A stretch of 64,000 bases of DNA. Source: Mucilaginibacter arboris (GTDB lineage Bacteria > Bacteroidota > Bacteroidia > Sphingobacteriales > Sphingobacteriaceae). The notes beneath the pieces were generated by a model. The model had not been told where the DNA came from. It did no database searches and was given only the letters and a program-made list of their open reading frames with translations. Shown here in pieces: positions 49,882-50,653 of the stretch; the first letter of the stretch is position 1, and every line of letters starts with the position of its first letter. Location of the stretch: contig NZ_WPIK01000012.1 in assembly GCF_009754915.1 (NCBI RefSeq), forward strand, positions 1 through 64,000. Reading direction: 5' to 3'. Position numbers and translations under genes: made by a program.

Positions 49882-49893
49882 TAAAAGAAGCAT
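49882..49893 (-). repeat. Dispersed motif after araA
   Basis: Exact reverse-orientation copy, 6 bases past the stop, preceded by TTAGGATGG. Confidence 0.7.
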
Positions 49894-49928: not shown

Positions 49929-49959
49929 AACCTTTAAGGTTTGTAAAACCTTAAAGGTT
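49929..49959. repeat. Left hairpin of a REP-like element
   Basis: AACCTTTAAGGTTT and AAACCTTAAAGGTT are perfect 14-base inverted arms with a 3-base loop. The core ACCT..AAGGTTT is close to that of the right-hand hairpin at 50614. Confidence 0.75.
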
Positions 49960-50009
49960 CATTTTAGTAGGTTTAGATTAGTAGTAATAAGCTTCGTTCA
50001 AAAAAAGCA

Positions 50010-50540
50010 GATGACAATATACCACCAACCACTTTAACCGGCGATACGTACCATCTCTTTTCAAGAGCTGTTGGCAGTGAAAGTTGTTTGTATGTAAAGA
50101 CAATTACCTTTTTTTTCTTCAAAAACTTAAACAGCATGCCGCAGGAGTTTGTCAATTGTATGGTTATGCTTTGATTCTTAATCATTTTCATCTGGTAGCG
50201 AGAATAAAAGGGGAAGAACAGATTATTCAATATTTTGAAGATGTAAAAAATCAGTTATGATCCCCTTAAGCATGATTTATCAGATTTTATCATGGAACGA
50301 TTCAGCAATTTTTTAAATAGTTATACTAAAGCTTTTAATAAAATTTATCAAAGTAAAGGGTCTATATTTAAAGTAAAGGGTCTATATTTATGGATTACCT
50401 AACGAGAAGCAAGGTGAAAGAAGACAGCGGCTTGACGGCTTACATCTGGTATATCCATAAAAACCCTGTGCACAATATCAATTAACCAGAGCTATCGGTG
50501 ATTGGAAAACTGTGTCTACCAAAATAAATATTCAAGATTT
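50010..50540 (+). pseudogene. Decayed REP-associated Y1 transposase (RAYT)
   Basis: Pieces of one protein lie in three frames: LTGDTYHLFSRAVGSE; then LYGYALILNHFHLVARIKGE with the HUH-type HFH motif (50183-50191); then FSNFLNSYTKAFNKIYQSKG, carrying a candidate catalytic Tyr; then YIWYIHKNPVHNIN; and a final GDWKTVSTK. These blocks match in order the Y1_Tnp/TnpA_REP family. Frameshifts, stops and a 20-base tandem duplication show it is dead. Perfect hairpins flank it on both sides. Confidence 0.8.
50351..50390 (+). repeat. 20-base tandem duplication in the transposase remnant
   Basis: AAGTAAAGGGTCTATATTTA occurs twice in direct succession with no mismatch, a recent slippage event. Confidence 0.9.
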
Positions 50541-50613
50541 ATAGGGATTTGTATCTATATAGTTTTTGAAAAACTCATGGATATAACATCGGGATTCAGA
50601 CCTATAATATAAT

Positions 50614-50653
50614 TTTAGACCTATAAGGTTTTTGGAAACCTTATAGGTCTAAA
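50614..50653. repeat. Right hairpin of the REP-like element
   Basis: TTTAGACCTATAAGGTTT and AAACCTTATAGGTCTAAA form a perfect 18-base stem with a 4-base loop, ending 3 bases before the HAD gene stop. It may also act as that gene's terminator. A lone half-site, AGACCTATAA, lies at 50598-50607. Confidence 0.8.

Follow-up and report, generated by a model that had tools for sequence, protein, structure and literature searches.

A dead transposase gene of Mucilaginibacter arboris, bracketed by two perfect DNA palindromes, is best read as a degenerate REP-RAYT-REP unit, or REPtron, and we put the probability of this reading at about 0.8. It holds that the gene has decayed while its palindrome population survives, and that the clade of the gene carries palindromes of its own with the same build.

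A decayed transposase gene between two perfect palindromes

The locus lies in a 64-kb window, which is the whole stretch of DNA that was analysed. Its parts are as follows.

49929..49959, no strand: left (upstream) palindrome, 14-nt arms and 3-nt loop, 100% complementary
50013..50482, + strand: dead RAYT/TnpA-REP-type transposase gene, with frameshifts, stops and eroded N- and C-terminal regions
about 50180-50191, + strand: HuH motif of the dead gene
50350..50389, + strand: 20-bp tandem duplication within the dead gene, one inactivating lesion
about 50450-50470, + strand: YIHKNPV motif of the dead gene
50614..50653, no strand: right (downstream) palindrome, 18-nt arms and 4-nt loop, 100% complementary

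An earlier, sequence-only reading of this DNA had picked out the two perfect hairpins and an AAGGTTT-type core common to both. Both observations held, as the arms are fully complementary and AAGGTTT-N-AAACCTT occurs in the window only at these two sites (0.04 expected). Folding as single-stranded DNA gave -12.2 kcal/mol for the left hairpin (z -5.6) and -16.5 kcal/mol for the right one (z -8.7), and no shuffled sequence equalled either. Searching Rfam with the hairpin returned chance matches only.

The protein pieces, which occupy two frames and are interrupted by several frameshifts and 10 in-frame stops, had been attributed to a Y1/RAYT transposase. The NHFH and YIHKNPV blocks are indeed both encoded, but the catalytic Tyr is expected in YIHKNPV and not in NSYTKAFNK, where it had been placed. 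The comparison with a Y1_Tnp profile, proposed at the same time, gave a divided answer: the frameshifted pieces did not reach Pfam Y1_Tnp, and the Pfam search yielded nothing useful, whereas the read-through translation matched NCBIfam NF047646 (REP-associated tyrosine transposase) weakly (E 5e-4, 19.9 bits, cut-off 80). All 8 intact relatives tested also scored under the Pfam cut-off. Against NF047646 these relatives obtained 48-80 bits and one reached the 80-bit cut-off, which is a database threshold and not a biological feature, the dead gene and most tested relatives lying under it.

That gene and palindromes form one unit is supported by the nearest intact relatives. In the tree, the dead gene groups with a gene of G019, from another genus of the same family (support 100/98), and with the Ferruginibacter gene L176 (100/99). 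Both of these closest relatives, the former with 62% identity, are bracketed by the CCTATAAGG palindrome, as is the dead gene. Among the congeners compared, the RAYT locus is specific to M. arboris; both congeners have unrelated DNA in the interval from araA to the phosphatase gene, so neither offers a clean empty site.

Near-identical palindromes dispersed between genes

The suggestion that the palindromes might recur elsewhere in the genome proved correct. Pattern searches, together with sampled genome stretches, located the 29-nt core ACCTNNAAGGTTT-N-AAACCTTNNAGGT at 41 sites in the 4.16-Mb genome, and a reversed control pattern at none. All 41 copies are extragenic, with none inside an ORF of at least 100 aa. 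The inner core of the right palindrome matches this dispersed family and differs only at the centre; away from the dead gene, 34 of 39 copies are identical across the 29 nt.

Exact copies of the core numbered zero in the two sister species, which lack the gene. Because mismatch-tolerant searches found 5 copies in 400 kb of M. arboris, one in 800 kb of G002 and none in 393 kb of G001, most of the expansion is lineage-specific. The G002 copy carries two mismatches and sits at a position corresponding to that of a copy in M. arboris. It is probably an ancestral (orthologous) copy in decay, the alternative being that an insertion occurred twice at this position.

A larger fold-back element around the dispersed copies

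While the palindromes next to the dead gene are naked, 39 of the 41 copies lie within a longer palindrome with the form (T)CACTAAAG-core-CTTTAGTG(A), or a form derived from that one. Its forms include TCACTAAAG-core-CTTTAGTGA, with TCACTAACTG, TCACTACCTG, TCACTAATTG and others as variants. The arms covary, with pairing above that of shuffles at positions 2-9, and this is partly a one-base register shift. Most of the longer palindromes are in turn located inside a fold-back element of 260-300 bp, which ends in GAAGTTGTTTAAACTTTTT and includes the 12-base motif TAAAAGAAGCAT. The element is built of concentric inverted repeats (GAAGTTGTTTAAACTTTTT...TGCTTCTTTTA...centre...TAAAAGAAGCAT...AAAAAGTTTAAACAACTTC) and is present in many copies, some of them nested or truncated (L003-L017, L032-L085). 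In the window, TAAAAGAAGCAT has 38 matches at up to one mismatch, including the one at 49882-49893, for 1.2 expected.

An unrelated transposase could have spread the copies as the centre of this fold-back (MITE-like) element, with the RAYT palindrome captured once and hitchhiking ever since. Such a course is suggested by the recurrent flanks that most copies share, and by copies of the element lacking the core, which exist in M. arboris and have relatives in G001. Comparing a filled junction (GATC-CACTAAAG[29]CTTTAGT-GATTAAATG) with an empty one (GATYGATTAAATG) revealed a 44-nt insertion with no target duplication; this junction is common to several copies and may represent a single event. Against hitchhiking, the outer flanks of several copies (L006, L039, L040, L041, L042 and L051) lie beyond the element on one side or both, and this unrelated sequence on at least one side means that the unit also occurs outside it. 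Conservation is much higher in the core than in the adjoining parts of the element (98% pairwise identity versus 73%, the latter over distinct flanks only), the G002 copy is probably older than the expansion, and many other Bacteroidota have gene-bracketing palindromes with no such element in view. We consider hitchhiking a genuine possibility but lean against it. Since the copies are nearly all inside longer palindromes, and mostly in the larger element, their mobilisation by the RAYT enzyme is putative, and the fold-back element may have driven the spread of the dispersed copies.

Other Y1 genes in the genome

The sequence-only reading had also thought it possible that the genome has an active transposase, which found no support: a genome-wide search for an intact copy of the dead transposase or an active cognate RAYT found none. 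The genome has only two intact Y1 genes, one IS200-like and the other a WQ-motif RAYT, each with different palindromes nearby. The IS200-like gene (L001, G000:C56:196866-197277) carries the motif YIANQETHH, in which it resembles Quentin subclass 1.2, a subclass reported without REPs. It adjoins a CACGGCCTNNAGGCCGTG palindrome, and there are 41 palindromes of this type in the genome, many of them in doublets about 115 bp apart. As for the suggestion that the 12-base motif TAAAAGAAGCAT might flank a RAYT gene, the motif was seen near the IS200-like gene, but its abundance in the window means that this says little, and it was dropped as a candidate REP of that gene for being too common. The WQ-type RAYT (L002, G000:C83:25402-26179) scores 115 bits against NF047646. 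All three genomic copies of TCGGGATTNNNAATCCCGA flank it, this palindrome family not being dispersed, and a second stretch downstream repeats the last part of the gene.

A transposase clade across the Bacteroidota

A profile built from 8 intact relatives was used to search 396 genomes of the same class. A homologue was present in 163 genomes at E <= 1e-10, and in about 79 at E <= 1e-25. When a named collection was scanned separately, 80 loci were obtained, almost all of them from Bacteroidota (Chryseobacterium, Flavobacterium, Algoriphagus, Pontibacter, Reichenbachiella, Niabella, Sediminibacterium and others). Four residues (H57, H59, Y140 and N144) are invariant in 34 intact relatives, the motifs are mostly NHFH, LF[Q] and YIHxNP, and the length is typically 190-225 aa. 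The WQ-motif RAYTs form a separate clade in the tree, with 100/100 support.

The family profile matched the TnpA-REP protein 4er8 at the sequence level (E 1e-8). An intact relative was modelled with AlphaFold2 (pLDDT 93.8), and the top PDB match of the model was the same 4er8, a RAYT in complex with a REP hairpin (probability 1.00, TM 0.66 by target length), and the IS608 and ISDra2 transposases ranked below it. The fold predicted for this intact relative, rather than for the dead gene itself, is that of TnpA-REP. An ordinary IS200/IS605 insertion sequence that has decayed, and that once moved as one unit together with its subterminal hairpins, would share the Y1 fold and the bracketing of the gene by hairpins, and the restriction of the locus to M. 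arboris within the genus would suit it. However, the Tyr motif is Y-x-x-x-N-P (class 2, RAYT-like; here YIHKNP) and not Y-x-x-x-Q, the best structural match is the RAYT 4er8 and not IS608, and the genome has about 40 palindromes but a single, dead copy of the gene. We regard an IS200/IS605 origin as extremely improbable.

Palindromes accompany the RAYT-type genes of the clade

Perfect or near-perfect hairpins were found in a flank of 103 of 152 non-redundant genes, and on both sides of 57; for about 30% of the homologues no flanking palindrome was detected. Among the 80 named homologues, 61 have a hairpin no more than 300 nt away and 35 have one on both sides. In the controls, hairpins were seen in 18 of 256 flanks belonging to other ORFs of these loci, and in none of 800 shuffled flanks. 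Similarly, hairpins were present at 47 of 78 genes in the first homologue set, versus 2 of 32 flanks of WQ-type RAYTs. The arms differ by 6% between the two sides of one gene and by 43% across genes (permutation p < 2e-4), and palindrome distance tracks protein distance (Mantel rho 0.30, p <= 0.0005). At one locus (L189), the flanking hairpins are very long (scores 26 and 35); half of a CCTGTCAGG palindrome lies outermost and another inverted repeat lies further in, which makes this one more nested palindrome.

These data also bear on a reading of the hairpins as ordinary bidirectional terminators of transcription, flanking a pseudogene by chance. Both hairpins of the dead gene are at gene ends and were detected by a terminator scan, and the genes around the core copies are convergent in 13 of the 41 cases, as terminators would have it; in 17 cases the neighbours are tandem, and in 8 cases, which speak against terminators, they are divergent. 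Moreover, many genera have palindromes on either side of their transposase genes and in frame within them, the palindrome sequence is gene-specific instead of generic, and other genes of these loci have far fewer hairpins in their flanks. A role as chance terminators is, to our mind, very unlikely.

The association of palindrome with RAYT-type gene was also apparent at the level of whole genomes. Palindromes of the CCTNNNAGG type occur in 41 of 79 gene-carrying genomes and in 38 of 317 others (OR 7.9, p 3e-13, relatedness ignored), and the presence of at least 10 copies was associated with the gene across the 396 genomes with an OR of 18; the pattern covers CCTNNNAGG-type cores only and so undercounts palindromes in gene-positive genomes. 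Such palindromes were also found without a detected clade gene in G344 (75 copies), G045, G285, G321 and G159, which, like the homologues with no flanking palindrome, speaks against the REPtron reading. The last four were still gene-negative when searched again at E <= 0.01, and G344, which is 91% complete in 1670 contigs, had one weak match. In other palindrome-rich genomes that were gene-negative at first, the matches were weak or of the other (WQ) RAYT type. Possibly, the palindromes of gene-negative genomes are orphan populations left after gene loss, or those of another enzyme.

A compact double palindrome that keeps the reading frame

The commonest palindrome unit (74 of 163 units) measures 33 nt and consists of a 15-nt arm, a 3-nt spacer and the inverted 15-nt arm. 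Each arm is itself palindromic, with 4.64 of 6 outer pairs matching versus 1.67 in shuffles, and forms a mini-hairpin of 6 bp with a 3-nt loop; in effect, the unit is two inverted mini-REPs fused. The stable fold is the long hairpin (-12.7 kcal/mol for AAACCTATAAGGTTTCGAAAACCTTATAGGTTT, compared with -3.1 for a lone arm). No enrichment of GT[AG]G was observed at the hairpin foot (15 of 326 feet, 4.6% versus 3.7% background).

Palindromes were also present inside unbroken transposase ORFs, in 29 of 78 genes of the first set and 21 of 80 of the named set. As 33 nt amount to 11 codons, the frame is kept on insertion, and the internal palindromes are read in different frames (NLQGFQNLEGL, FPKFETLEKL and NFSKVSNFGKV). 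In the first set, 24 of 32 internal hairpins are located at codons 63-97, a region between HuH and Tyr that in the predicted structure includes the loop between helices 67-78 and 86-111. We propose, as an idea with about as much for it as against it, that a Bacteroidota-wide TnpA-REP clade, not yet described as REP-associated, recognises a self-nested 33-nt double palindrome that has no guide tetranucleotide at the foot and can insert into genes in frame, often into a loop of its own transposase gene.

Relation to known REP systems

Like the TnpA-REP/RAYT proteins that go with REP, BIME and REPIN sequences (Nunvar 2010, PMC2817692; Bertels and Rainey 2011, PMC3116915; Quentin 2018, PMC6006769), the clade combines HUH with Y-x-x-x-N-P. 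It shares with RAYT/REP systems the low-copy gene, the bracketing palindromes dispersed between genes and the coevolution of protein and palindrome (PMC2817692, PMC3116915, PMC6006769). Unlike classical REPs, its palindrome has no GT[AG]G foot and is a compact, near-perfect double palindrome of ~33 nt, the classical form being an imperfect REP hairpin or a spaced REP pair; the protein has an LF motif where known RAYTs have WQ or WE.

Three published subclasses come close, in a comparison made by published motifs rather than the authors' HMMs or REP table, so that some members may already be listed in PMC6006769. Subclass 2.6 (Bertels group 5) belongs to the Bacteroidetes and has NH[LIV]H, WQ, YIH[QN]NP and about 179 aa; its secondary structures are atypical, and its palindromes without GT[AG]G were found by hand (PMC6006769). 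Phylum and absence of GT[AG]G are common to both, but identity with this subclass was rejected, given mostly NHFH, LF[x] and 190-225 aa here and the separate clade (100/100) of proteins with 2.6 motifs. Perfect palindromes were detected in only 2 of 32 flanks of the 2.6-type (WQ) genes. Subclass 2.4 (Bertels group 4), with single or double GT[AG]G feet and a WQ motif, has in-frame palindromes between HuH and Y (PMC6006769), and the clade resembles it in these insertions within the transposase gene but not in the feet or in WQ. Finally, subclass 2.1 (Bertels group 1), or TIRYT, has C-terminal HTH-type extensions, a median of 238 aa and no reported REP-like structures (PMC6006769). Its NH[YF]H, FQ-like and YIHLNP motifs resemble those of the clade; it was discarded as a match, as the clade has palindromes and a typical length of 190-225 aa, and the 2.1 reference proteins (234-295 aa) fall outside it.

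The compact palindrome type of the clade is not described in the RAYT/REP literature compared (PMC2817692, PMC3116915, PMC6006769). The arrangement of a gene with its palindromes is already known from RAYT/REP; the wider new point is a compact non-GTAG system across the Bacteroidota.

A possible mechanism and its implications

With the biochemistry of TnpA-REP as a model for binding, cutting and rejoining at a palindrome (PMC8266576), the product of the dead gene would once have been a TnpA-REP-type HUH/Y1 endonuclease acting on single-stranded DNA. An enzyme of this type would bind the REP hairpin in that single-stranded form, cut next to the hairpin by means of the Tyr of Y-x-x-x-N-P, and rejoin the strands. 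In this way, enzymes of the clade may have cut and mobilised their palindromes, which would spread to further intergenic sites with no target duplication.

M. arboris offers a natural experiment, in that its gene is dead and two congeners lack the gene, while about 40 near-identical palindromes persist in M. arboris and the sole copy found in a congener appears to have started to decay. Most work on REPs and RAYTs concerns Proteobacteria, in which cutting is guided by the GTAG foot. A REP type that lacks this foot raises the question of how such enzymes locate their cut site, and the clade supplies many enzyme-palindrome pairs for comparison.
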